Positions 27,109 to 36,727 of a DNA stretch of 48,024 nucleotides are shown piece by piece. The stretch is taken from IMG/VR virus record IMGVR_UViG_3300043446_003565, positions 1 through 48,024 of that record, one strand, 5' to 3'. This DNA comes from a virus. The position numbers and the translations under genes were made by a program. The notes under the pieces were generated by a model that made no database searches, was not told where the DNA came from, and was given only the letters and a program-made list of their open reading frames with translations. Each line of letters begins with the position of its first letter. Positions within the stretch are counted from its first letter, which is position 1.

Positions 27109-27134
27109 CGGCCCGCTCAGCAATGGGCGGGCCG
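27109..27134. other. GC-rich stem-loop after ssb
   Basis: CGGCCCGC (27109-27116) pairs perfectly with GCGGGCCG (27127-27134), loop 10 nt, six bases after the ssb stop and ten before the next start. There is no T-run, so it would be a pause, processing or weak termination element. First member of a recurring junction type (see findings). Confidence 0.6.
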
Positions 27135-27143
27135 CTTCCGACG

Positions 27144-27608
27144 ATGATCCAGACAGAGTTTCTGAGCTACCTCCGCCGGCACCACCGGGCGGAGATGGTG
27201 CTGGTGATGGTGCAGCTGGAGCAGGTGTGCCCAGGGTGGTGGGAGTCGCTGGAGGACCTGGCAGAGCAGCTGGGGACCGATCGCGCGACGCTGAACCGGA
27301 GCCTGCGGCACCTGGAAGATCGGGGGCTGATCCGCCGTTTCAGCATCAGCAACCGATCCGGCACATGGATCTGGTGGGTGAAACGCCATGCGGTGGACGC
27401 CCCCGATCCCGACCAGGAGCCTGCGTGGGTGCTGAAGTCGACGACCAGCAAGCATCGGGTACGGGTGCCAGTTTCTCGTCGGCGGGAGTGGGCGCAGCGC
27501 CGGGGGATCCCGCTGCCGACACTGATCGGATTCCTGAACGGCCGGCAGAACGTGCTGCGTGGGCAGTGGCGGGTCGTCGGCTCGCCAGTGGATTGTGAAG
27601 AGTTGTGA
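27144..27608 (+). CDS. Winged helix-turn-helix protein
   Basis: 154 residues from the ATG at 27144 (MIQTEFLSYLRRHHRAEMVLVMVQLEQ...); an ATG at 27123 is the alternative but lies in the stem-loop. 'WESLEDLAEQLGTDRATLNRSLRHLEDRGLIRRFSIS' is a clear MarR/replication-initiator-type winged helix, followed by 'GTWIWWVKRH' as wing. The C-terminal part 'VRVPVSRRREWAQRRGIPLPTLIGFLNGRQNVLRGQWRV' is basic. It is probably a DNA-binding regulator or a replication accessory factor. Confidence 0.75.
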   Translation: MIQTEFLSYLRRHHRAEMVLVMVQLEQVCPGWWESLEDLAEQLGTDRATLNRSLRHLEDRGLIRRFSISNRSGTWIWWVKRHAVDAPDPDQEPAWVLKSTTSKHRVRVPVSRRREWAQRRGIPLPTLIGFLNGRQNVLRGQWRVVGSPVDCEEL

Positions 27609-27684
27609 ACGCAGCTGTTATGGCGCGGTGTGGCGCCGGATAGTGGTCTCAACGGGGGGCGACCCCCACCACCCCAACGGACCG

Positions 27685-27921
27685 ATGACCTTCACCACCC
27701 TGGTCTACGAACGCGAGCACGACCGCAAGCCGCGCGGCCGCGGCAGCTGGGCGTTCTGCCCCTGGTCGAAGCACAACGCCCACGATTACCTGGACCACAC
27801 GGTCTTCAGCCCCGGCGGCATGACGCTCACCGAGGCGAAGCGCTGGGCGCGTCTCCACGCCAGTGACGTCCGCTCGCCGCTCGCCGCGGCCGTGGGCCAG
27901 ACCATCGTGATCATGCCCTGA
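27685..27921 (+). CDS. Hypothetical protein
   Basis: 78 residues from the ATG at 27685 (MTFTTLVYEREHDRKPRGRGSWAFCPWSKHNAHDYLDHTVFSPGGMTLTEAKRWARLHASD...). The leader has no Shine-Dalgarno; a stem-loop GGGGG/CCCCC lies at 27654-27667, then 17 nt of C/A-rich sequence. No family is recognised. The frame is open upstream to 27559, but that part overlaps the previous gene. Confidence 0.65.
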   Translation: MTFTTLVYEREHDRKPRGRGSWAFCPWSKHNAHDYLDHTVFSPGGMTLTEAKRWARLHASDVRSPLAAAVGQTIVIMP

Positions 27922-27952
27922 GCGGCGCTCAATGTCCCATCGCATTCCCTCA

Positions 27953-28168
27953 ATGGACTACACCGTCAACGGCATTGACATGCTGGCTCTGAGCAACCGA
28001 CTCGAGCAGCAGACCGGCTTCTACCTCCAGACCGCGGGCTGCGATTGGCAGATCCGCAACCCGCTTGGCAACCTGGTGATTCAGTGGGGGGCCGGCACCG
28101 CCAGCCAGAACGCCGCCGCCTGCGTGAGCTACCTGGCCGAGCGCGGCATCGCCCTGGAGGTGGCCTGA
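27953..28168 (+). CDS. Hypothetical protein
   Basis: 71 residues from the ATG at 27953 (MDYTVNGIDMLALSNRLEQQTGFYLQTAGCDWQIRNPLGNLVIQWGAGTASQNAAACVSYLAERGIALEVA); an in-frame ATG at 27932 would add seven residues. A TGAGC/GCTCA mini-hairpin (27919-27931) overlaps the previous stop. Its stop overlaps the next start (TGATG). No family is recognised. Confidence 0.62.
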   Translation: MDYTVNGIDMLALSNRLEQQTGFYLQTAGCDWQIRNPLGNLVIQWGAGTASQNAAACVSYLAERGIALEVA

Positions 28169-28407
28169 TGTCTCAGCTCATCTACAAGGCCGGCCCCTGG
28201 TTGATTGAGCAAGACCCGACCATGGCGGCCCGCCCCGACCTGGTGCGGTTCGTCAAGCGCGGTCCAAGCGGTCGCAAGACGCTGGACCAGATCGCGCAAT
28301 GGACCGGCACCGGCTGGGATCGGTCCCGCTGGATTCCACGGCCGCCGATGGTCTCTCGACCGATTCTCGACTTGGTGGAGCGGCACATGCAGGGGGTGCA
28401 GCGATGA
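28168..28407 (+). CDS. Hypothetical protein
   Basis: 79 residues: MSQLIYKAGPWLIEQDPTMAARPDLVRFVKRGPSGRKTLDQIAQWTGTGWDRSRWIPRPPMVSRPILDLVERHMQGVQR. It is basic and Trp-rich, coupled on both sides (TGATG, ATGA). It has no recognised family. Confidence 0.65.
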   Translation: MSQLIYKAGPWLIEQDPTMAARPDLVRFVKRGPSGRKTLDQIAQWTGTGWDRSRWIPRPPMVSRPILDLVERHMQGVQR

Positions 28408-28697
28408 AACGCGAGACCCTCACCCTGGTCGGCCGGGCCCACAGCTTGGCCTTTGACGACGGCACCGCCAGCTGGAAGATCGCCATCCGCCGCAGCGCGG
28501 ATCCGAACCACCTCATCGACTTCAACCTCCAGGCCCGGCAGACCCAGGTCCTCGAGCAGTTCGAGGCCATGGACGAGGGCCAGCTGATCGGCGTGATCGC
28601 CGAGCTGCCGCCGGTGCGGCTGCGGGTGCCCGGTGCGCCGCTGACCGTGACCCGTCTGGAGCTGCTGGGCAAGGCCCAGGAGGTGGCCCGTGCCTGA
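28404..28697 (+). CDS. Hypothetical protein
   Basis: 97 residues from an ATGA-coupled start (MKRETLTLVGRAHSLAFDDGTASWKIAIRRSADPNHLIDFNLQARQTQVLEQFEAMDEGQLIGVIAELPPVRLRVPG...). The alternating strands and one central helix suggest a small beta-barrel (OB-like) fold. It has no recognised family. It overlaps the next gene by 8 bp. Confidence 0.65.
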   Translation: MKRETLTLVGRAHSLAFDDGTASWKIAIRRSADPNHLIDFNLQARQTQVLEQFEAMDEGQLIGVIAELPPVRLRVPGAPLTVTRLELLGKAQEVARA

Positions 28698-28872
28698 GAC
28701 CAACGTCACGCACCTGGGCGACGGCCTCTATGCCGCCTTTGACGGCTGGGGCATCGCCCTCAGCGTCAACGACCACCGCAACCCGCCGGTCGCCTACATC
28801 GACGGGCCGTCAGTGATGGCAGCACTGAATCGGTTCTGGGAGCAGCAGACCGCACAGGAGCGGGGGCGCTGA
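28690..28872 (+). CDS. Hypothetical phage protein
   Basis: 60 residues from a GTG at 28690, with AGGAGG 6 nt upstream (inside the previous gene). 'VTHLGDGLYAAFDGWGIALSVNDHRNPPVAYIDGPSVMAALNRFWEQQ' matches a short protein type common in phages (LGDGLYA-F-DG-...-L), of unknown function. Its last base is shared with the start of the methyltransferase gene. Confidence 0.75.
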   Translation: MPETNVTHLGDGLYAAFDGWGIALSVNDHRNPPVAYIDGPSVMAALNRFWEQQTAQERGR

Positions 28873-30320
28873 TGTTCAACCCCGACTTCTACCCCACGCC
28901 GCCCGAGGTGGCGGCCACCATGCTCGACCCGCTCGACCTGCAGGGCGCGGTGATCCTCGAGCCATCGGCCGGCAGCGGCAACCTCGTCGCCGAGTGCCTG
29001 ATCCGCGGTGCTGCCCGGGTCGTGGCCTGCGAGAACGAGCCGAAGCTGCGCAGCCTGCTGGCCGGCGGCGACGCCGCCCGCACCGGCCGCCTTCAGATCA
29101 TCGGAGAGGACTTCCTGCAGCTCCAGGCCGGTGACGTCGCCACGGTCGACGCGATCGTGATGAACCCGCCGTTCAGCGCCGGCGCAGCGCACCTGCTCCA
29201 TGCCTGGCGCATCGCCCCGGCGGGCTGCCAGATCGTCTCCCTGCTGAACAGCTGCACCCTCACCCGCTGGCACAGGGGAGACGATCGCCGGGAGCTGCAA
29301 CCGCTGGTCGACGCCTACGGCAGCGTCCAGGAACTGGGTGAGTGCTTTCGAGAGGCAGAGCGTCGCACCAACGTGGAGGTGTCGCTGGTGCGGCTGCGCA
29401 AGCCGGCCAATGACGACGCCAGCGAGTTCGACGGGTTCTTCATGGGCCCCGACGACGTGGAGGCCGAGGGCCAGGGGATCATCCCCTACAACCTCGCCCG
29501 CGACGTGGTGAACCGTTACGTGGAGGCCTGCAAGATCTTCAATGAGCAGCTGGCGACCGCCGCCCGCCTGTCGACGGTGCTCGATGGCGTCTACCAGGCG
29601 CAGGGCACCGGCATCGCGGTGCTGATCACCGAGAACGGCGTGCCGCGCGCTGCGAACGCGTTCCGCAAGGATCTGCAACGGCAGTTCTGGACGTGGGTGA
29701 TCAAGCGGATGGGCCTCGAGCGCACCGCCACCAGCCAGCTGCAGAAGGATCTCGCGAAGTTCGTGGAGCAGCAGTCGCATGTGCCGTTCACGATGCGGAA
29801 CATCTACCGGATGCTGGAGATCGTGATTGGCACCCACGAACAGCGGATGGACAAGGCTGTCATCGAGGTGTTCGACGAGTTCACGAAGCACACCAAGGAG
29901 AACAGGTGGGGCGTCGAAGGCTGGGTGACGAACGAGCAGTATCTGTTCGGGAAGAAGTTCATCGTGAACGACCTGGTAAAGCCGGACTGGTCGGGTAGCA
30001 CGGTGAGCATCAAGAGCTACTGCGGCCGCCGCACGCAGGTGGAGGACCTGATCAAGGCGCTGTGCTCGATCTGCGGCAAGAGCTACGACCTGATGAAGGA
30101 TCCAGCCTGCGGCTATGACCACCTGGAGGCGGGTGTGTGGCAGGACTGGGGATTCTTCCGGTTCAAGGTCTACAAGAAGGGCACCGGCCACTTCGAGTTC
30201 AAGGACCTGGATGACTGGGCGCGGCTGAACCAGCGTGTCGCCAAGATCCGTGGGTGGGTCCTGCCGGAGCAGATGAAGCGGCCGCGGCCGCGTCGGAAGC
30301 GCGAAGCGGCCGCGGCATGA
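28872..30320 (+). CDS. Adenine-specific methyltransferase domain fused to DUF4942
   Basis: 482 residues. The N-terminal part has 'FYPTPPEVAATML', the SAM-binding motif EPSAGSGN (30-37) and the catalytic NPPF (98-101), which is the N6-adenine (gamma-type) order. After about residue 190 the protein is DUF4942-like: 'NLARDVVNRYVEACKIFNEQLATAARLSTVLDGV', 'GVEGWVTNEQYLFGKKFIVNDLVKPDW', and a Cys-containing 'ALCSICGKSYDLMKDPACGYD'. The C-terminus is very basic (RPRPRRKREAAAA). It may protect phage DNA from restriction. No target-recognition specificity can be read from sequence. Confidence 0.87.
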   Translation: MFNPDFYPTPPEVAATMLDPLDLQGAVILEPSAGSGNLVAECLIRGAARVVACENEPKLRSLLAGGDAARTGRLQIIGEDFLQLQAGDVATVDAIVMNPPFSAGAAHLLHAWRIAPAGCQIVSLLNSCTLTRWHRGDDRRELQPLVDAYGSVQELGECFREAERRTNVEVSLVRLRKPANDDASEFDGFFMGPDDVEAEGQGIIPYNLARDVVNRYVEACKIFNEQLATAARLSTVLDGVYQAQGTGIAVLITENGVPRAANAFRKDLQRQFWTWVIKRMGLERTATSQLQKDLAKFVEQQSHVPFTMRNIYRMLEIVIGTHEQRMDKAVIEVFDEFTKHTKENRWGVEGWVTNEQYLFGKKFIVNDLVKPDWSGSTVSIKSYCGRRTQVEDLIKALCSICGKSYDLMKDPACGYDHLEAGVWQDWGFFRFKVYKKGTGHFEFKDLDDWARLNQRVAKIRGWVLPEQMKRPRPRRKREAAAA

Positions 30321-30340
30321 CCAGCACCTGGTATCCCCCC

Positions 30341-30358
30341 GCCGCCGGCACCGGCGGC
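30341..30358. other. GC-rich stem-loop before 30386 start
   Basis: GCCGCCGG and CCGGCGGC pair perfectly around a 2-nt centre (practically a 6-bp stem with 6-nt loop). It is followed by a 27-nt C-rich leader and the ATG at 30386. Member of the recurring stem-loop/leader junction. Confidence 0.6.
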
Positions 30359-30385
30359 TTCCTTCTCACCAATCCACCATTCGCC

Positions 30386-31108
30386 ATGACTGCAGCCGAC
30401 CAGATCCGCGCCGCGATCCAGCGGTGCATCGAGGCCAACCCTGAACCTTCCGACGGAAGCGACATCGCGGCTGCGGTGCTGTATGCGGCAGCTGAGGTGC
30501 TGTGCCCGGAGAAGCCGGAGCCTCTGGAGCCGAGGCCGCTCACGCCGGTCAAGGCGATCCACCATGCCGGGGAGTGGAGCGCATGGCGCGCCATGAAGGC
30601 CGCCAACGAGCGCCTGCATGCCCTGGCCGAGCAGCTGAACGACACTGCTCTGGCCCAGCCCGCCACGACCGAAGGACCGGCTGTGCTCGAGGGCAGGGAA
30701 CCGGCCGCCGTCACTGGCCAGTCTGTCACCGCCGAGGGGGAGGTGGCGGAGTTGGTGCGCACGTTGCGGATGGAGGTTGCAGCTTGGAACGGCAACGAGT
30801 CGGCCACGTATTGGTTGAGCGGTCCTGAAATGACCCGCATTGCCGACCTGCTAGAGCGCCAGGCCGCCCCGGTGCCGGTGGCGGTGAGTGGCTGGCAGGA
30901 CATCGACACTGCGCCGAAAGACGGCACCGAAATCCTGGCCAGTGACTACGACGCCATTGAGATTGTGAGCTGGGTCGCTCCAAGGTTTGATGTGGGCATC
31001 ACGGGTGAATGGACCAATCGCGAAGGCGAGGCCATGTATCCAGCCTGGTGGCAGCCGTTGGCCGATCACCCCGACCTGCCGCTGCCCAGCGGGGAGGACG
31101 AGCCGTGA
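30386..31108 (+). CDS. Protein with C-terminal DUF551-like domain
   Basis: 240 residues from the ATG at 30386; an upstream ATG at 30317 overlaps the methyltransferase stop but would translate through a strong stem-loop, so I prefer 30386. The C-terminal 80 residues 'GWQDIDTAPKDGTEILASDYDAIEIVSWVAPRF...YPAWWQPLADHPDLPLP' match DUF551 (pattern W-x-x-I-x-T-A-P-K-D-G ... WxPLP). The N-terminal part has helices rich in Ala/Glu ('AWRAMKAANERLHALAEQLND'). Function unknown. Coupled to the next gene by a GTGA overlap. Confidence 0.75.
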   Translation: MTAADQIRAAIQRCIEANPEPSDGSDIAAAVLYAAAEVLCPEKPEPLEPRPLTPVKAIHHAGEWSAWRAMKAANERLHALAEQLNDTALAQPATTEGPAVLEGREPAAVTGQSVTAEGEVAELVRTLRMEVAAWNGNESATYWLSGPEMTRIADLLERQAAPVPVAVSGWQDIDTAPKDGTEILASDYDAIEIVSWVAPRFDVGITGEWTNREGEAMYPAWWQPLADHPDLPLPSGEDEP

Positions 31109-31581
31109 CCCGGCTGCCGCCGACCACGGTGGCGAACACGGTGGCCGACCTGCGCGAGGCAGCACAAGCCGCCGCCAGCGTTCGCCACTACGAGGACGCC
31201 GCACTGCTCACCCGCGCTGCCGATCTGATCGAGGAGCTCCGAGCCGCATGGCGGCGGGGAACCCGGCCGCCATGCCCCGAGTGCAACGGCACCAGCACGG
31301 GCGTGGTGGAAGTCCGCCGGTCGAAGGCGGGGCCGACGCGTCGTCGGCACGAGTGCAACACCTGCCGGTGCCGCTGGACGTTGTGGGATGGCGTCCTGGA
31401 CCATGAGTCCATCGTGAAGCCCACCCTGGCCCTGCCCGCCCCCGCGCCAGGAGTCCTCACATGCCTGTCCTGCCAGCACTGGACGGACGACCGTTGCGGC
31501 ATGGGCTTCCCTGATCCCGAGCTGGAGGGCGTGGGCTTCGCGGCCGACTGCGAGACGTTCCTCGGCGCTCCCTTACCGTGA
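31105..31581 (+). CDS. Zinc-ribbon hypothetical protein
   Basis: 158 residues from a GTG at 31105 overlapping the previous stop. It starts with a helical domain 'VADLREAAQAAASVRHYEDAALLTRAADLIEELRAAW'. A zinc ribbon follows ('PPCPEC...HECNTCRCRW', Cys pairs), then a second Cys set 'LTCLSCQHWTDDRCGMGFPDP...ADCETF'. Such double Cys clusters occur in phage proteins of unknown role that bind nucleic acid or metal. Confidence 0.7.
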   Translation: MTRLPPTTVANTVADLREAAQAAASVRHYEDAALLTRAADLIEELRAAWRRGTRPPCPECNGTSTGVVEVRRSKAGPTRRRHECNTCRCRWTLWDGVLDHESIVKPTLALPAPAPGVLTCLSCQHWTDDRCGMGFPDPELEGVGFAADCETFLGAPLP

Positions 31582-31739
31582 CCGGAAGCCGGGTCGGCTC
31601 CACCCGTGAGGGCGAGCACCGCTGCAGTCGCCCTGGGGTGCGGCTGCCACGCGCGGTATCGGAGGCCCGGCGCGTCTTCGTAACGCTTTGCGACAACACC
31701 CTGTTGCAATGGCGCTGCAGTGGTGATGATGAGCGCACC

Positions 31740-31755
31740 GGGGCGGAGACGCCCC
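31740..31755. other. GC-rich stem-loop before 31772 start
   Basis: GGGGCG (31740-31745), GAGA tetraloop, CGCCCC (31750-31755), then a 16-nt leader and ATG. GNRA tetraloops on GC stems are very stable. The roughly 190 bp before it (31582-31739) holds no gene I can support. Confidence 0.6.
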
Positions 31756-31771
31756 ACAACCCCTGGATTCA

Positions 31772-32203
31772 ATGACCACCATCACCACCCTTCAATCTGA
31801 TCTGGTCCGCCTGATCGGAACCCTTCGCGCACTCCCCTGGGCCAAGATCGCCGACCGCACCGCGAACGGCATCCGCCTCAGCTGGGCCGTTGCCCAGCTG
31901 ATCGTCGCCGGCTGCGTCCTGCTCGGTGAAGTCGCCTGGGAGCACCGGGCCAAGATCCGCCAGGGCCTGGTCACCGCGATCGCCGCGGTCTACGTGGCCG
32001 GCTGCTGGACCCGTGAGCAGGCCGAGCGCTGCTACCGCGCCGGCTGCTGGACGCGCCATCAGCTGGAGCGCTTCAGCGGCCGCACCGTGGCCCTGCTGCC
32101 CCAGCAACCGGTCGAGGCCCTGGCTCCCATCACGGCCACCATGCAGGCCGCCCGCGAGGCCCTCGCCCGGCTGATCGCTCGCCTCTACCCCGCGGTCGCC
32201 TGA
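31772..32203 (+). CDS. Hypothetical membrane-associated protein
   Basis: 143 residues: MTTITTLQSDLVRLIGTLRALPWAKIADRT..., with hydrophobic segments 'LSWAVAQLIVAGCVLLGEVAW' (about 36-56) and 'GLVTAIAAVYVAGCW' (about 65-79). A small direct repeat 'AGCWTREQAERCYRAGCWTRHQLERF' follows. This looks like a membrane-anchored helical protein. No family is recognised. No Shine-Dalgarno. Confidence 0.65.
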   Translation: MTTITTLQSDLVRLIGTLRALPWAKIADRTANGIRLSWAVAQLIVAGCVLLGEVAWEHRAKIRQGLVTAIAAVYVAGCWTREQAERCYRAGCWTRHQLERFSGRTVALLPQQPVEALAPITATMQAAREALARLIARLYPAVA

Positions 32204-32217
32204 CCCCACCCACGGCC

Positions 32218-32240
32218 TGCCGGGAGCCTCGATCCCGGCA
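32218..32240. other. Stem-loop before 32263 start
   Basis: TGCCGGGA (32218-32225), 7-nt loop, TCCCGGCA (32233-32240): a perfect 8-bp stem, followed by a 22-nt leader made almost only of C and A, then ATG. Lies 15 bp after the previous stop. Confidence 0.65.
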
Positions 32241-32262
32241 CCATCCCACCGCATCACCCACC

Positions 32263-32529
32263 ATGCACTTCCCGCCGCTTCCTCTCTCGTCGGACAACAC
32301 CATCGAGGTGTGGCACGTCAAAGGGCACATCACAGACGTTCGGGTCACGCGAGGGTTCGCCCGCTATGGCCGGCTGCCTGCCTGGCGTCGCTGGCTGGGG
32401 CGCTGGTTTCCGTCGCTGCTGATTCACTGGCACCGTTCACAGCCTGATCCCACCTGGCAATCAGTTCTCTTCTTGGGGAAGATTGGAGACCAGCCGAACG
32501 ACCCTGTGACCGAACGCTGGCCTGACTGA
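32263..32529 (+). CDS. Hypothetical protein
   Basis: 88 residues: MHFPPLPLSSDNTIEVWHVKGHITDVRVTRGFARYGRLPAWRRWLGRWFPSLLIHWHRSQPDP..., with an aromatic and basic centre (WRRWLGRWF) that could bind membranes or nucleic acid. No family is recognised. It is followed by a 64-bp gap that contains a weak ACGGC/GCCGT stem and a C-rich leader. Confidence 0.6.
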   Translation: MHFPPLPLSSDNTIEVWHVKGHITDVRVTRGFARYGRLPAWRRWLGRWFPSLLIHWHRSQPDPTWQSVLFLGKIGDQPNDPVTERWPD

Positions 32530-32593
32530 TGACCGAGAACGGCCCGCCAGGAGCCGTCACCAATCCTGGCCCTCATCTCACCCCATTCTTACG

Positions 32594-32740
32594 ATGCGAA
32601 CGCTCTCTTTCATCGTCGTGTTGACCGCATGGCTGACCATCTTCATCGGGTACTTGTTCGTGCTCGCGACGACAATGCGCGCCATGACGAACGCCGAGCG
32701 CGCACTCCTCCCGCTGTGCTCTCAGCAGGTGAAGCGATGA
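32594..32740 (+). CDS. Small single-pass membrane protein
   Basis: 48 residues, too short for most gene callers: MRTLSFIVVLTAWLTIFIGY, LFVLATTMRAMTNAERAL and so on, ending QQVKR. Residues 4-25 form a strong membrane helix with Arg2 and Arg29 at the ends (N-in likely). Its stop overlaps the next start (ATGA), which supports it being real. Function unknown. Confidence 0.6.
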   Translation: MRTLSFIVVLTAWLTIFIGYLFVLATTMRAMTNAERALLPLCSQQVKR

Positions 32741-32949
32741 CCGGTTACGCACTCCGCCGCGGCCGCGACTGGATCACCGCTCCTGAGGGTGACTGCCGGC
32801 CTGGTCAGCCCATCCCGCCGGTGCTGGCCATCTCTGACGACTCGTCGCTGGCCTGGTTGTCATCCACCATCGAACAGGCGCTGGAGCGCGCGTCGCTGCT
32901 TCGCATGTGCTGGGGCTGGGCCACGGAGATCCGGAGAATCGACCGATGA
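32737..32949 (+). CDS. Hypothetical protein
   Basis: 70 residues from an ATGA-coupled start (MTGYALRRGRDWITAPEGDCRPGQPIPPVLAISDDSSLAWLSSTIEQALERASLLRMCWGWATEIRRIDR). Likely a small strand-helix protein. No family. It is coupled to the next gene by ATGA. Confidence 0.6.
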   Translation: MTGYALRRGRDWITAPEGDCRPGQPIPPVLAISDDSSLAWLSSTIEQALERASLLRMCWGWATEIRRIDR

Positions 32950-33149
32950 TCAGGATCTTCAACGGCTATCCCTGGCGCTTCCAGATCGGTGACCAGGTCT
33001 GGGTGCGTGGTTGGAACGACGAGAGCGCACGCATCATCAGCCAGCAGATCACGCGGAATGGCTGGCCGCATTACCGCGTCGTCGATGAGATCGGCGCAAA
33101 GTTCATCGTGCCTCAGATTCACATCAGTTCACGCCCGATTCATCTATGA
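32946..33149 (+). CDS. Hypothetical small beta protein
   Basis: 67 residues (MIRIFNGYPWRFQIGDQVWVRGWNDESARIISQQITRNGWPHYRVVDEIGAKFIVPQIHISSRPIHL). 'FQIGDQVWVRG...ARIISQ...PHYRVVDEIGAKFIVPQIHI' is the layout of a small SH3-like barrel. It is coupled to both neighbours by ATGA. No named family. Confidence 0.62.
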   Translation: MIRIFNGYPWRFQIGDQVWVRGWNDESARIISQQITRNGWPHYRVVDEIGAKFIVPQIHISSRPIHL

Positions 33150-33517
33150 GCCTGACCGTTCGATTCCCTCAGAATCTCTCAGAGCACGACCCAACCGGCC
33201 GCGCCGCCAACGAGCCGGGGGCCAAACTGGATGCTGGCAAACCCCGCTGCGCCCTGGTGTTGGGGGGCTTCAGCCGAGCCTTGGAACAGGTGGCTCTGGT
33301 CGGCACCTTTGGCGCAGCCAAATACACCGACCACGGCTGGCGCAGCGTCCCCAACGGGCAGGAGCGCTACACCGACGCCCTCTGGCGTCACCTGCTGGCC
33401 GAGGCCCAGGGCCTGGAGCTTGATCCCGACTCGAGCTTGCTGCATGCAGCCCACACGGCATGGAACGCCCTGGCCCGCCTTGAGCTGATCCTGCAGGAGC
33501 AGGAGGGCCAGCCATGA
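33146..33517 (+). CDS. dATP/dGTP diphosphohydrolase N-domain protein
   Basis: 123 residues. 'GAKLDAGKPRCALVLGGFSRALEQVALVGTFGAAKYTDHGWRSVPNGQERYTDALWRHLLAEAQGLELDPDSSLLHAAHTAWNALARLEL' matches the all-helical 'dATP/dGTP diphosphohydrolase' N-terminal family of phages (blocks D-x-GKPR, TFGAxKYxDHxWR, RYxxALxRHL, H-x-AH). Family members are proposed to hydrolyse dNTPs and shape the nucleotide pool. It is one of two nucleotide-metabolism genes within 1.2 kb. Confidence 0.85.
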   Translation: MSLTVRFPQNLSEHDPTGRAANEPGAKLDAGKPRCALVLGGFSRALEQVALVGTFGAAKYTDHGWRSVPNGQERYTDALWRHLLAEAQGLELDPDSSLLHAAHTAWNALARLELILQEQEGQP

Positions 33518-33639
33518 GGACGCGACTGATCGGCTTCCTCATGGTCGTCCTGCCGCTCGGCTGGCTGGCCTGGGATGCCCACTACGATCCCTGCGGCCTG
33601 CAGGGCAAGGCCTGGTTCAAGTGTGCTGAACCACGATGA
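33514..33639 (+). CDS. Small secreted or membrane-anchored protein
   Basis: 41 residues, ATGA-coupled on both ends: MRTRLIGFLMVVLPLGWLAWDAHY, then DPCGLQGKAWFKCAEPR. An N-terminal signal-anchor (residues 5-20) is followed by a short loop with two Cys that could be periplasmic and disulfide-bonded. Function unknown. Confidence 0.6.
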   Translation: MRTRLIGFLMVVLPLGWLAWDAHYDPCGLQGKAWFKCAEPR

Positions 33640-33845
33640 CTCCTGATCTGCGCCTGGCCCTGCGCCAGAACACTTGCCGCCGCGCGCACATCGCCGGCGC
33701 TGAGGCCGCCAGCCTCGCGACCGATGGCTTTCTCGCTGAGGCCGCAGAGGCCCGCCGCCGCTACTTCCGCGAGCTGGAGACCTGCGACCTCCTCGCAGGC
33801 ATCTCCCCCTCCCCCTTCGCTCCCCTCACTCATGGAACTTGCTGA
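33636..33845 (+). CDS. Hypothetical protein
   Basis: 69 residues: MTPDLRLALRQNTCRRAHIAGAEAASLATDGFLAEAAEARRRYFRELETCDLLAGISPSPF.... Helical up to about residue 53. The last residues are encoded by the stem-loop and C-rich leader of the downstream deaminase gene, which its stop overlaps by 14 bp. No family is recognised. Confidence 0.58.
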   Translation: MTPDLRLALRQNTCRRAHIAGAEAASLATDGFLAEAAEARRRYFRELETCDLLAGISPSPFAPLTHGTC

Positions 33846-34344
33846 TCACCAGATCGACGAACTGTGCCGCGGCGGCATGGTCACCCCCTACGATCCGGCG
33901 CTGCTCAACCCGGCGTCGCTGGACCTCCGCCTGGGGGACACGCTGCTGATCGAGAAATCATCCAGTCCTGAACTGGTGCCCTACCCCCTGGGACATCACA
34001 GCGAGGAGTTCCCCTACTTCCTGGTCCCGGGCCAGTGGGTGCTGGCCGAGACGGTGGAGCTGTTCACCATCCCCGACTGGCTGTCTGTCCAGTTCATCCT
34101 AAAGTCCTCCCGCGCGCGGGAAGGATTCGACCATGCCCTCGCCGGCTTCGGGGACCCGGGCTGGCACGGCAGCCGGCTGACGATGGAGCTGAAGAACAAC
34201 CGCCAGCTGCATCCGATCCCGCTCTGGCCTGGCATGCGCATCGGCCAGATGAAGTTCTCGCGCATGAGCAGCGAGCCCCGCCGGTCCTACCGGGAGACGG
34301 GCCGCTACAACGGCGACACCACGGTCCAGGCCAGCCGGGGATGA
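33832..34344 (+). CDS. dcd: dCTP deaminase / dUTPase-family protein
   Basis: 170 residues from the ATG at 33832. Motifs are 'LLNPASLDLRLGD' (25-36), 'FILKSSRAREGF' (89-99), 'GFGDPGWHGSRLTMELKNN' (106-123, catalytic-position Glu119) and 'GMRIGQMKFSRM'. These are the DCD/dUTPase trimer motifs. The enzyme would turn dCTP to dUTP (or dUTP to dUMP), feeding dTMP synthesis for phage DNA. It has no Shine-Dalgarno: a CCTGCGA/TCGCAGG stem-loop (33781-33799) and a 32-nt pyrimidine-rich leader precede the start. Confidence 0.9.
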   Translation: MELADHQIDELCRGGMVTPYDPALLNPASLDLRLGDTLLIEKSSSPELVPYPLGHHSEEFPYFLVPGQWVLAETVELFTIPDWLSVQFILKSSRAREGFDHALAGFGDPGWHGSRLTMELKNNRQLHPIPLWPGMRIGQMKFSRMSSEPRRSYRETGRYNGDTTVQASRG

Positions 34345-34511
34345 CCAAGCCGCAAGTGATCGCCCGGATCGAACGCGACGGCGGCGCCATCGAGGTGCTG
34401 CAGAACCAGCAGGGGCACATCTACCACCGGGCCTGTGCGCGGGGCCTGCGCCGCTACTGCGAGGACCGCTGGCAGGCCGAGCTCTACCTCGATCAGTTGC
34501 TGGGATCCTGA
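34341..34511 (+). CDS. Hypothetical protein
   Basis: 56 residues, ATGA-coupled to the deaminase (MTKPQVIARIERDGGAIEVLQNQQGHIYHRACARGLRRYCEDRWQAELYLDQLLGS). Last gene of the early operon, 30 bp before the terminator. No family is recognised. Confidence 0.65.
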   Translation: MTKPQVIARIERDGGAIEVLQNQQGHIYHRACARGLRRYCEDRWQAELYLDQLLGS

Positions 34512-34541
34512 GCGGGTACGATGCACGAGGACGTGAGAGCC

Positions 34542-34572
34542 ACCCGGTCGCCGCGAGACGACCGGGTTTTTT
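34542..34572 (+). terminator. Rho-independent terminator of the early operon
   Basis: ACCCGGTCG (34542-34550), 8-nt loop, CGACCGGGT (34559-34567), then a T-run to 34572. A perfect 9-bp stem plus U-tract: a textbook intrinsic terminator for the roughly 11-kb plus-strand early operon. Confidence 0.93.
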
Positions 34573-34941
34573 GTGGGAACCGTGTCGGAGGTGCAGCTGT
34601 CGGCGCGTGCGGTGGCGATCCTGCGGGAGCTGCAGGCGGCTGAGGCGGCGATGGGCGGGGGGTGCCCGGCGGTGATCGCCGGGGCGGAGCGCACGGGCCC
34701 GCTGGTCGGCTACCGGAAGCCGTGGCTGGCGCTGTGCCGGGAGGCCGGCATCGAGGGGCTGCGGATCCACGACCTGCGGCACACGTTCGCGTCCTACACC
34801 CTGTCGGCCGGGCACAGCCTGGGTGTGGTGGGGCAGCTGCTGGGGCACCGCAGCACGCAGACGACGAGCCGGTATGCGCACCTGGTCGACGAGGCGGCCC
34901 GGGCGGCGGTGGCCAGGGTGAGCGACGACCTGGGAGTGTGA
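34573..34941 (+). pseudogene. Tyrosine recombinase/integrase remnant (C-terminal part only)
   Basis: 122 residues opening at GTG codons (34573 or 34582) directly after the terminator. The sequence is the end of an integrase catalytic domain: 'VQLSARAVAILREL', 'IEGLRIHDLRHTFASYTLSAGHSLGVVGQLLGHRSTQTTSRYAHL', with His66-x-x-Arg69, His92 and Tyr101. The whole N-terminal DNA-binding domain and the first catalytic Arg and Lys are missing; full enzymes are about 300-400 residues. No matching N-terminal part was found upstream in any frame. It is most likely a remnant, though the kept catalytic residues and clean frame leave open a small functional protein. Confidence 0.75.
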
Positions 34942-34951
34942 CTGGTTGCAA

Positions 34952-34979
34952 CGTTGGCTGCCATCCGTGGCGGCCAACG
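34952..34979. other. Long stem-loop before 35011 start
   Basis: CGTTGGC-t-GCCA (34952-34963), loop tccg, TGGC-g-GCCAACG (34968-34979): a 12-pair stem with one T-G wobble. It starts 10 bp after the integrase stop and is followed by a 31-nt pyrimidine-rich leader. It could also be the site where recombination truncated the integrase. Confidence 0.6.
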
Positions 34980-35010
34980 CCTACGGTCCTGTGGTGTTCA
35001 TTCACCACCC

Positions 35011-35292
35011 ATGACCGACCGAGCCGCTGAACTGGAGCGCCTGAAGAGTCAGCAGCGCGTAAAGCGCTATCGCGATCGCAAGGCGGGCTTCCTGCCGCCG
35101 CTGCCCGTGTGCCCGAAGTGCGGGGCGAAGATCCTCACCGATCGGTGGCTGCCGCTGTGCTCGATCTGCGGCAGGAACACCAGCGGTGAACGGCGTGGCA
35201 GCCGCGGGCAGCTGCACAAGGCGCGGCCGGTGCGGCTCGCCGCCGAGGAGATCATCCGCGAGCTGCGCGCCGAGGCCCGTGGACACGTTTGA
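35011..35292 (+). CDS. Zinc-finger hypothetical protein
   Basis: 93 residues from the ATG at 35011: MTDRAAELERLKSQQRVKRYRDRKAGFL then 'CPKCGAKILTDRWLPLCSICG', a four-Cys zinc ribbon, and a basic C-terminal helix 'HKARPVRLAAEEIIRELRAEARG'. The basic N-terminus and ribbon suggest nucleic-acid binding. It overlaps the following HTH gene by 14 bp. Confidence 0.68.
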   Translation: MTDRAAELERLKSQQRVKRYRDRKAGFLPPLPVCPKCGAKILTDRWLPLCSICGRNTSGERRGSRGQLHKARPVRLAAEEIIRELRAEARGHV

Positions 35293-35695
35293 TCTGCTGG
35301 CGCTGCGCCATCGCGTGTCTGACTCGACGCTGCTCGACTGGGCGGAGCTGGAGCAGCTGCTGCCGCCGCGGCCCTGCCGGATCCGTGTCGCTGAACTGCG
35401 TCGCCTGTGGCGCTGCTCGCAGCCGACCGTGAGCCGACGCATCACGCGCCTGTGGGATGCGGGCCTGCTCGATTACCGGGCTGGCAGCGGCTGGTATCGG
35501 GTGCGCCGCCTGGGGCCCCTACCGCAGAAGCCAGATCGCGTGCCAGGTGCCGATCAGGAGAACGACGCCCATGACAGCGCTCATCACCGCGACCCGGATC
35601 TCGTGATCGCGGATCGCGGCGTTGACGATGTCCCGAACCTGTTGCTCATCCATGGCCGGAGGGTAGCCGGCGACGCGGGAGCGGGCTGTAGCTGA
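35279..35695 (+). CDS. Winged helix-turn-helix protein
   Basis: 138 residues from a GTG at 35279. The convincing part is residues 1-80: 'LLDWAELEQLL...CRIRVAELRRLWRCSQPTVSRRITRLWDAGLLDYRAGSGWYRVRRLG', a clear winged helix. The rest, from about 35520 onward, lies opposite the small membrane gene on the other strand and reads as unordered sequence, so this tail may be a chance read-through. The protein is a candidate regulator for the control region that follows. Confidence 0.68.
   Translation: MDTFDLLALRHRVSDSTLLDWAELEQLLPPRPCRIRVAELRRLWRCSQPTVSRRITRLWDAGLLDYRAGSGWYRVRRLGPLPQKPDRVPGADQENDAHDSAHHRDPDLVIADRGVDDVPNLLLIHGRRVAGDAGAGCS
35519..35653 (-). CDS. Small membrane protein, antisense to the HTH gene's 3' end
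   Basis: 44 residues on the minus strand: MDEQQVRDIVNAAIRDHEIR, then VAVMSAVMGVVLLIGTWHAIWLLR. A charged amphipathic helix followed by one membrane helix is a common layout of small phage anchors. It overlaps the plus-strand HTH frame in antisense for its whole length. Both frames cannot be equally constrained. I favour this one for the overlap because of its clean membrane pattern. Confidence 0.5.
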   Translation of the reverse strand: MDEQQVRDIVNAAIRDHEIRVAVMSAVMGVVLLIGTWHAIWLLR

Positions 35696-36250
35696 TACAT
35701 CCGTACCGTTGGCACTCGCGCCGGTTGAGTGCCAACGGTACAAACGCACTACCGAACGGCTGGTACAGATGCACCATCAAGCAGTGCGCAGACTGCGCGA
35801 AGAATTGATAGTACGCGTGCACTGCTTATCAATGAGATCGACTGCGCCGCAATGGATCTGAGCCGGTAGTACATCCGCTCACCCCCGATTGTTACGCGGC
35901 GTGAAGCGACCGAGTGTGACACCTGTGGAAACGGAGTTCTCCACAGGTACGGCTGTACCAGATTGGCCAGATCCCAGTTGCCGCAATGTATTTGAGCGGT
36001 AGTACGGCCGTATCAAGCGGTCCGATTCGGTGTAATAGCGATACACAAACCCGCCCCCCTTGTGCCAGTTGGGGGCGGTTGCGTGTGCGGCGAGTGTGCC
36101 AGTTATCGCTTATCTGTGCCACTACGTCACCGGCACAACCGGGCCAGATCGCTTGCGGCGCAAGGGGTTTGGCCAATTTTGGTTCATGCGTACTGGTTAC
36201 GTCTTGGCACGAATGCAGCGCATACTGAAGGGGTCCCACGCACCAGTCCG
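35696..36250. other. Repeat-rich non-coding region (candidate origin/control region)
   Basis: About 555 bp without a convincing gene and less GC-rich than the rest. It holds the 15-bp inverted repeat at 35703-35741; a 9-bp inverted pair aagcagtgc/gcactgctt (35779-35787, 35819-35827); a near-identical 26-bp direct repeat gccgcaatg...gcggtagtac (35846-35872 and 35980-36005); ACCTGTGGA/TCCACAGGT (35921-35929, 35940-35948), whose TTCTCCACA arm is one base from a DnaA box; CCGCCCCC/GGGGGCGG around 36050-36077; and tgtgccagtt twice (36061-36070, 36095-36104). This density of repeats is what a phage origin or a switch region would look like. Confidence 0.6.
35703..35741. repeat. Perfect 15-bp inverted repeat
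   Basis: GTACCGTTGGCACTC (35703-35717) and GAGTGCCAACGGTAC (35727-35741) are exact reverse complements with a 9-bp spacer, giving a 39-bp dyad. There is no T-run, so it is not a standard terminator. Origin hairpin, recombinase core or operator are the options. Confidence 0.75.
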
Positions 36251-36403
36251 ATGTCCACCACCGCAATCGCTACCGAGATCCGCTGGATGGTCGCCAACAC
36301 CATCAGCGATCCGATCGAGGCGCTCCGCGTCTGGGAGATCGAGATGGCCCACCCGCTCACCGATGAGCAGTTCGACGAGGTGATCCACCTCGTCCGGGGC
36401 TGA
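36251..36403 (+). CDS. Hypothetical small protein
   Basis: 50 residues: MSTTAIATEIRWMVANTISDPIEALRVWEIEMAHPLTDEQFDEVIHLVRG. Helical and acidic. First gene after the non-coding region; the leader is C-rich with a GAAGGGG sequence about 20 nt upstream. No family is recognised. Confidence 0.58.
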   Translation: MSTTAIATEIRWMVANTISDPIEALRVWEIEMAHPLTDEQFDEVIHLVRG

Positions 36404-36413
36404 GCCCCCACCC

Positions 36414-36433
36414 GGGGCGCCACCCGGCGCCCC
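36414..36433. other. GC-rich stem-loop before 36462 start
   Basis: GGGGCGCC (36414-36421), loop ACCC, GGCGCCCC (36426-36433), 10 bp after the previous stop, then a 28-nt C/A-rich leader and ATG. Perfect 8-bp stem. Confidence 0.65.
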
Positions 36434-36461
36434 TCACTCACGTCACCCCCACCACAGACCG

Positions 36462-36665
36462 ATGACCGTCACCGCCGCCGAGATCGCCGCCCTGGTCGCC
36501 GCCGACCGGGACGAAGCGCACGAGAACGCACTGGATGCGTTCCACGCCATCGAGGCGCTGCAGTCCACCGCCACATGGATGGAGCTGCCCATCAGCGTCA
36601 GGCGCGTGCTGTCCGCCTCGCACGCCGCGCTGGGCGCCATTGCCGATGCCATCGGTGGGGAGTGA
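36462..36665 (+). CDS. Hypothetical small protein
   Basis: 67 residues: MTVTAAEIAALVAADRDEAHENALDAFHAIEALQSTATWMELPISVRRVLSASHAALGAIADAIGGE. All helical and acidic. No Shine-Dalgarno. It stands between two nearly identical stem-loops (36414-36433 and 36682-36701). No family is recognised. Confidence 0.6.
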   Translation: MTVTAAEIAALVAADRDEAHENALDAFHAIEALQSTATWMELPISVRRVLSASHAALGAIADAIGGE

Positions 36666-36681
36666 TCCCCAGCCGCACCAC

Positions 36682-36701
36682 GGGGCGCGCCACAGCGCCC
36701 C
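36682..36701. other. GC-rich stem-loop before 36728 start
   Basis: GGGGCGC (36682-36688), loop GCCACA, GCGCCCC (36695-36701), then a 26-nt C/A-rich leader and ATG. Seven-bp perfect stem, very like the one at 36414. Confidence 0.65.
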
Positions 36702-36727
36702 TGACCCGTCCCACCGCACCGCACGCC

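Follow-up and report, generated by a model that had tools for sequence, protein, structure and literature searches.

The stretch of DNA analysed here, called the window throughout, is the whole of the 48,024-nt IMG/VR virus record IMGVR_UViG_3300043446_003565, a genome of 67% GC. This 48-kb record carries gpA-type terminase, portal, contractile-tail sheath and tape measure genes, and its early region encodes a PrimPol/VapE-like primase, a helicase, an exonuclease VIII-like nuclease, RecT and SSB. An earlier note on this DNA had listed ten gene starts that seemed to share one junction design, a GC-rich stem-loop followed by a C-rich leader lacking a Shine-Dalgarno (SD) sequence. Sequence comparison places two of these junctions, those before the ATGs at 27685 and 31772, in one conserved element of uncultured phages, probably infecting cyanobacteria (elements 1 and 2; Table 1), while the eight remaining sites are coding sequence, chance, or beyond the reach of the conservation comparison.

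The junction element and its two copies in the window

All ten listed stems fold, with energies from -4.1 kcal (27919-27931) to -21.1 kcal (34952-34979), and a hairpin of -10 kcal or below is present in the upstream windows of eight of the ten starts. Random windows from the same region contain hairpins of this strength in 17% of cases, genome windows and shuffles in 10-11%, and 10 of 29 plus-strand junctions reach -10 kcal where about five are expected, leaving a modest excess of stems over background. The leader was found as described: eight of the ten starts have at least 44% C, at most 16% G and no SD sequence in the 25 nt before the ATG, and the same composition occurs in 2.5% of plus-strand windows and at one of the 11 other starts. 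The sites had been chosen by eye on hairpin and C-rich leader, so that both properties were selection criteria, and conservation therefore had to decide.

Homologous junctions were located through their proteins, for example the junction following the winged-helix gene upstream of element 1. Promoter and hairpin were present in 27 of the 29 homologous loci of this junction, with compensatory changes. When relatives were aligned by their flanks, the five stem pairs formed in 90.4% of cells, compared with 38-62% when the partner was slid. The pairs swap among GC, CG, AU and GU with pairing retained, and the covariation score was 0.465, versus 0.125 +/- 0.037 for shuffled sequences (none of 500 reached it); sliding the partner gave 0.17 at most. 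R1, a covariance model built from this junction, matched the window at 27639-27675 (40 bits) and 31725-31763 (33.3 bits); no other match exceeded 14 bits (E = 0.15), and the ten-member family was rejected, as only the 27685 and 31772 junctions rose above noise. The recurring stem with its C-rich, SD-less leader is thus real and conserved at two sites, but not at ten. R1 was positive in 41 of 46 related records, with up to five copies per record. Rfam gave no match in the window, and none at 27560-27760 up to E=5; no description of this element was found in the literature searched, which covered few subscription journals.

The element consists, in order, of tandem repeats, 29 or 30 nt, a -10-like hexamer, N5-C-A(+1), the stem-loop, the octamer ACCACCCC and the ATG. 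The repeats, (T)TGTNAC-N3-TTGTNAC, have a 10-bp period and lie at about -58 to -42. The hexamer, in outline GATGAT or TANNNT, varies (GATGAT, TATTCT, TAGGTT, TAGTGT, GATAGT), with A2 and T6 invariant across 21 homologous junctions. A GC stem of 4-6 bp with a GNRA loop begins 0-4 nt past the predicted +1, and among 30 non-redundant GNRA elements the octamer directly after it is conserved while the following eight positions (9-16) are not. The gap from stem to ATG is mostly 15-20 nt and the ATG lies about 35 nt from the predicted +1 (leaders of 34 nt and 35 nt are predicted for the starts at 27651 and 31737); near the ATG the leader is C-rich, SD-less and poorly conserved. Neither the promoter repeats and -10 hexamer nor the GNRA loop and conserved octamer had been part of the earlier description.

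Table 1. Positions of the two elements, a possible third promoter and the gene of a candidate regulator in the window (scores are from the promoter position weight matrix, PWM)
Feature	Position	Strand	Sequence	Remarks
Winged-helix DNA-binding protein gene	27144-27608	+		HTH_Crp_2 2.6e-7, MarR 8e-7
Element 1, tandem repeats	27593-27609	+	TTGTGAA-GAG-TTGTGAA	PWM 30.8; repeats kept in relatives
Element 1, -10-like hexamer	27639-27644	+	GATAGT	predicted +1 = A 27651
Element 1, stem-loop	27654-27667	+	GGGGG-GCGA-CCCCC	from +4; -10.1 kcal
Element 1, C-rich SD-less leader	27668-27684	+	begins with ACCACCCC	octamer at 27668-27675
Gene behind element 1	27685-27921	+		78 aa; one of 11 exchangeable families
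Element 2, tandem repeats	31678-31694	+	TCGTAAC-GCT-TTGCGAC	PWM 29.1
Element 2, -10-like hexamer	31725-31730	+	GATGAT	predicted +1 = A 31737
Element 2, stem-loop	31740-31755	+	GGGGCG-GAGA-CGCCCC	from +4; -12.6 kcal
Element 2, SD-less leader	31756-31771	+	octamer-like ACAACCCC
Gene behind element 2	31772-32203	+		143 aa; no Pfam match
Possible third promoter before 35011	34936-34987	+	GTGTGAC-TGG-TTGCAAC, 29 nt, TACGGT	hexamer at 34982-34987
Small hairpin before ATG 35011	34991-35008	+	GTGGTG-TTCATT-CACCAC	-8.9 kcal; at predicted 5′ end

The coupling of promoter and hairpin was examined with a PWM that was trained blind to the hairpin and applied to the related loci (best noise score over 10 Markov sequences, 13.9). 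The scan yielded 50 non-redundant promoters, and at 31 of these a hairpin of -5 kcal or below starts at +1 to +5, compared with 5% in the controls (positions further downstream, shuffles); the sites share ancestry, and counts over them are not independent trials. Tetraloops behind the scanned promoters were GNRA in 18 of 23 cases. At these sites A-11 and T-7 are invariant, C stands at -1 in 39 of 50 and A at +1 in 37 of 50, which agrees with a sigma70-type -10 box (A-11, T-7, start 6-7 nt downstream); no comparable conservation was seen around -35 to -30, where a -35 hexamer at 16-18 nt spacing would lie. Promoters of the class without a hairpin likewise lead into C-rich, SD-less leaders. In a separate scan of all viral contigs of the collection with the bare pattern TGTGA-N4-TTGTTAC-N29/30-GATGAT we obtained 24 stretches, and 10 of the 17 distinct sites had a hairpin of -6 kcal or below (shuffles, 5.8%).

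Possible functions of the promoter-hairpin unit

Taken together, the sequence patterns very probably reflect a promoter joined to an RNA structure in the 5′ leader. Our preferred reading, which we consider reasonably likely, is that elements 1 and 2 are early-gene promoters whose transcripts would start with a structured cap, probably one that protects the 5′ end; that such protection is the main function we judge to fall slightly short of an even chance. An RNA polymerase holoenzyme carrying a primary-type sigma factor would start at A 27651 and A 31737, assisted by an activator bound to the tandem repeats, which we infer because no -35 box is conserved. The stem, preceded by 1-3 unpaired nucleotides, would shield the mRNA 5′ end from RppH/RNase E-type decay, and the C-rich unpaired stretch of 16-19 nt past it would serve as the landing site of an SD-independent ribosome. 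There is precedent for such an effect: bla mRNA can be stabilised by a hairpin at its 5′ end, which impedes RppH (PMC3997798). In the stabilising stem-loops of ompA and papA the stem likewise stands a few nucleotides from the 5′ end (PMC3997798), a position that is predicted here; those, however, are leaders of single bacterial host genes, whereas the small GNRA stem with its octamer belongs to one promoter class in many phages.

Several points weigh against this reading. The starts at 27651 and 31737 are predictions, and kinship among the sequences inflates shuffle-based covariation statistics such as the one given above. Since 19 of the 50 promoters have no hairpin, the promoter does not require one. 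The reading also presumes RNase E-type decay in a host that is itself inferred. Finally, the octamer ACCACCCC and the GNRA preference exceed what a plain protective stem needs; being unexplained by 5′ protection alone, they leave room for a bound factor.

It is accordingly conceivable, at perhaps a chance in four by our estimate, that hairpin and octamer form the site of an RNA-binding factor, similar to nut/boxB or put, which modifies the polymerase or the mRNA of early transcripts. HK022 put sites are small GC-rich hairpins in the leaders of early phage transcripts, and nut/boxB sites resemble the element in having a small GC-rich hairpin with a GNRA or GNRA-like loop in an early phage leader. 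Lambdoid boxB hairpins with GNRA-like loops are bound by N peptides (PMC12550061). Conservation of loop and octamer next to a variable stem sequence would suit such a site, as would the repetition of the element at several early promoters within one phage. The stems, however, differ even within one genome (GGGGG, GGGGCG), so that only loop and octamer would be readable, and the element differs from nut and put sites in its variable stems, its 1-5 copies per phage record and the lack of a boxA-like sequence. The adjacent octamer ACCACCCC does not resemble boxA, the neighbour expected in a nut site. No N-like protein was identified, although arginine-rich peptides were not searched for systematically. 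A bolder proposal, slightly less likely again, is that GNRA hairpin and ACCACCCC are a dedicated RNA-control mark on early accessory transcripts, read by an RNA-binding factor of phage or host or acting as a put/nut-like antitermination signal, and that the promoter-hairpin unit acts as an exchange socket for unrelated genes.

We regard it as unlikely, though worth keeping in view, that the leader serves mainly translation, the hairpin isolating a C/A-rich unstructured landing site for S1-type, SD-independent initiation. Insulation of translation and an unstructured leader for S1-dependent initiation, both suggested in the earlier note, are compatible with the data. A stereotyped stem-to-ATG spacing of 15-20 nt and the SD-less, C-rich leader fit this idea, and the hairpin-less promoters feed the same kind of leader; but transcripts starting at +1 would contain no upstream sequence to insulate against, and the hairpin is absent at 19 of 50 promoters. 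The closest published parallel that we found is the Start-Associated Sequences (SAS/ESAS) of Cluster K mycobacteriophages. These are short elements repeated before start codons in one phage and conserved between phages, and they precede genes of different families, as here; their function is unproven. Over its 13 bp the SAS is conserved and could pair with 16S rRNA, and 17-bp inverted repeats lie upstream at about half of the sites (PMC3203893). The element described here differs in its variable stem sequence, in having no SD-like part, and in the -10 hexamer and promoter repeats upstream; the poorly conserved stretch before its ATG offers no counterpart to the asymmetric 13-bp SAS sequence.

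The earlier note's suggestion of U-tract-free terminators is very improbable, as is the related idea that the stems form the 3′ ends of upstream genes. The stems at 36414, 36682 and 32218 do sit 10-20 nt past stop codons, but the two true stems stand where the transcript is predicted to begin, 8-9 nt past a conserved -10 hexamer, and keep a fixed distance to the ATG; they have no U tract, run into ACCACCCC or ACAACCCC, and look different from the ordinary U-tract terminator of the window (34542-34575). Marginally less probable still is a DNA operator over the start site: a repressor could well bind an inverted repeat placed at +4 to +17, but operators keep their sequence, and here the stem sequence varies while pairing and loop are kept. 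One could also argue that every listed stem arises by chance or is coding-driven in a genome of 67% GC, since 17% of random windows here hold hairpins just as stable and two of the stems are demonstrably coding; we give this hardly any credence, because conservation, covariation and promoter coupling exclude chance for 27685 and 31772.

An arrangement similar to the element was seen in the cyanophage S-2L, the 2-aminoadenine phage, before its exonuclease gene (18059-18010, minus strand). It reads TTGTGG-17-TATAGT-6-A-cc-GGGGGC-GGGA-GCCCCC-ACAATCCC, with the stem at +4 behind a canonical promoter. R1 gave it only 9.1 bits (E=2), and we treat it as a lead and not as a member.

The other listed sites and their surroundings

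At 30386, the stem (30341-30358) lies inside an open reading frame (ORF) that starts at 30317 with an ATGA overlap, and encodes AAGTGG of a conserved peptide, which reads MTSTWYPPAAGTGGFLLTNPPFAM in the window and MTPSGTWYPPELGTGGFLLTNPPFAPM or other variants in relatives. Differences among relatives over this region number 7, 3 and 26 at codon positions 1, 2 and 3; from this pattern the stem was rejected as coding, and the ORF therefore probably starts at 30317 and not at 30386. The peptide itself, about 24 N-terminal residues (30317-30385) with WYPPxxGTGGFLLTNPPF, resembles methyltransferase motifs I and IV; it recurs in L018, L022, L027, L029 and L044, fused to differing downstream proteins in each phage. 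The stem before 33832 (33781-33799) was rejected as well: it is part of the coding sequence 33636-33845, and L082 and L084 retain the protein but not the stem. The 27919-27931 stem before 27953 includes the stop codon of the upstream gene. For 32263, 32594 and 36728 the junction comparison found no homologues, and for 36462 a single partial one; elements at these four sites and at 27953 are unsupported. A chance or coding hairpin is our default explanation for 27953, 32594, 33832 and 30386, and a chance hairpin is possible for the other listed sites outside the two elements. At 36414-36433 and 36682-36701 there are perfect GC stems of 7-8 bp, 10-20 nt past stop codons and before C-rich leaders; no promoter motif is present near them.

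A weak third promoter may precede the start at 35011. The candidate scores 14.8 with the PWM, barely above the noise maximum, and a parallel arrangement (TGTGAA..TTGCTGC, 29 nt, TACCGT) precedes the homologous gene in L115. Its small hairpin at the predicted 5′ end, absent in L115, is tentatively part of a third element, and the 12-bp inverted repeat at 34952-34979 falls within the spacer of this possible promoter, outside the leader.

Further features were observed in the region. Between the SSB and winged-helix genes lies a strong hairpin outside the earlier list (27112-27136, GGCCCGC..GCGGGCC, -20.4 kcal). Of a tyrosine integrase, the ORF at 34573-34941, directly after the U-tract terminator, holds just the C-terminal catalytic portion (PF00589 positions 111-170); it has homologues in 23 loci. 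The closely spaced genes at 33146-33517 and 33832-34344, dATP/dGTP diphosphohydrolase-like and dCTP deaminase-like, respectively, suggest manipulation of the nucleotide pool.

Candidate activators, probable host and exchangeable genes

Two proteins are candidates for the activator of the tandem repeats. The first is the winged-helix protein encoded upstream of element 1, whose AlphaFold model has a pLDDT of 90.7 and whose fold search returned only MarR/Fur-like matches (E about 0.005). The TGTGA-like half-site and two arginines in its DRATLNRSL segment are, in our view, reminiscent of CRP, and it may regulate the promoter. As sole activator it is doubtful, because the 50-kb record of L115 (G015) contains elements while no winged-helix homologue is detectable in it. 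The second candidate, by analogy, is the host's RpaB. Its site HLR1, KTTACAWW-N2-KTTACAWW, activates from about -66 to -45 (PMC13421787), and the repeats of the element are also a direct repeat of 10-bp period upstream of the -10; the sequence match is partial, however, as the half-sites are TGTNAC (variable base G/T/A) and have no WW tail.

A cyanobacterial host is likely for the window phage, judging from protein matches: its primase and the one of Synechococcus phage S-LBS1 share 65% identity, its helicase is 56% and 54% identical to the counterparts in S-LBS1 and S-H1, and the sole match of the winged-helix gene among 50,697 phage records is in S-2L. The cultured cyanophages S-LBS1 and S-H1 have replication proteins in common with the window, and the element is absent from them. 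A search of the phage collection found no close DNA relative of the window, two scans of bacterial genome contigs found no relatives, and neither psbA nor NblA was present as a host marker among the 46 records. The HIP1 octamer was dropped as host evidence: its 13 copies are high against base composition alone, but Markov models of orders 2 to 4 already predict about 6-7, and the maximal-order model 11.

At the junction after the winged-helix gene, the element is followed by 11 protein families without detectable mutual similarity. The same architecture also precedes other genes, e.g., downstream of the methyltransferase gene of L115 and L006. The proposal that the element marks acquired cassettes is supported in part, by this one junction with its 11 unrelated families. 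In several relatives (L064:11891, L025:10312, L037:8832, L106:4324, L010:13256 and, on the reverse strand, L151 at 4443) the same promoter is followed by a long structured leader, with a GGAGGC..GCCTCC stem, a GGGGC..GCCCC hairpin and then a conserved hairpin around CCTGCCAGATCGTCGGCATTCCCC. The first ATG there lies about 100-150 nt from the start, and L165 has a short version. The L064 copy had no credible match in Rfam; this leader is possibly a regulatory RNA.

For dozens of uncultured phages that previously had none, these results offer a testable model of a promoter and its 5′ leader, with transcription starts predicted to the base. Promoter, mRNA 5′ structure and SD-less initiation would be joined in a single short unit. 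This unit precedes 11 unrelated families at one position, which suggests a route by which small accessory phage genes may be swapped while expression persists. The leader may also provide a compact, naturally varied part for expression work, probably in cyanobacteria.

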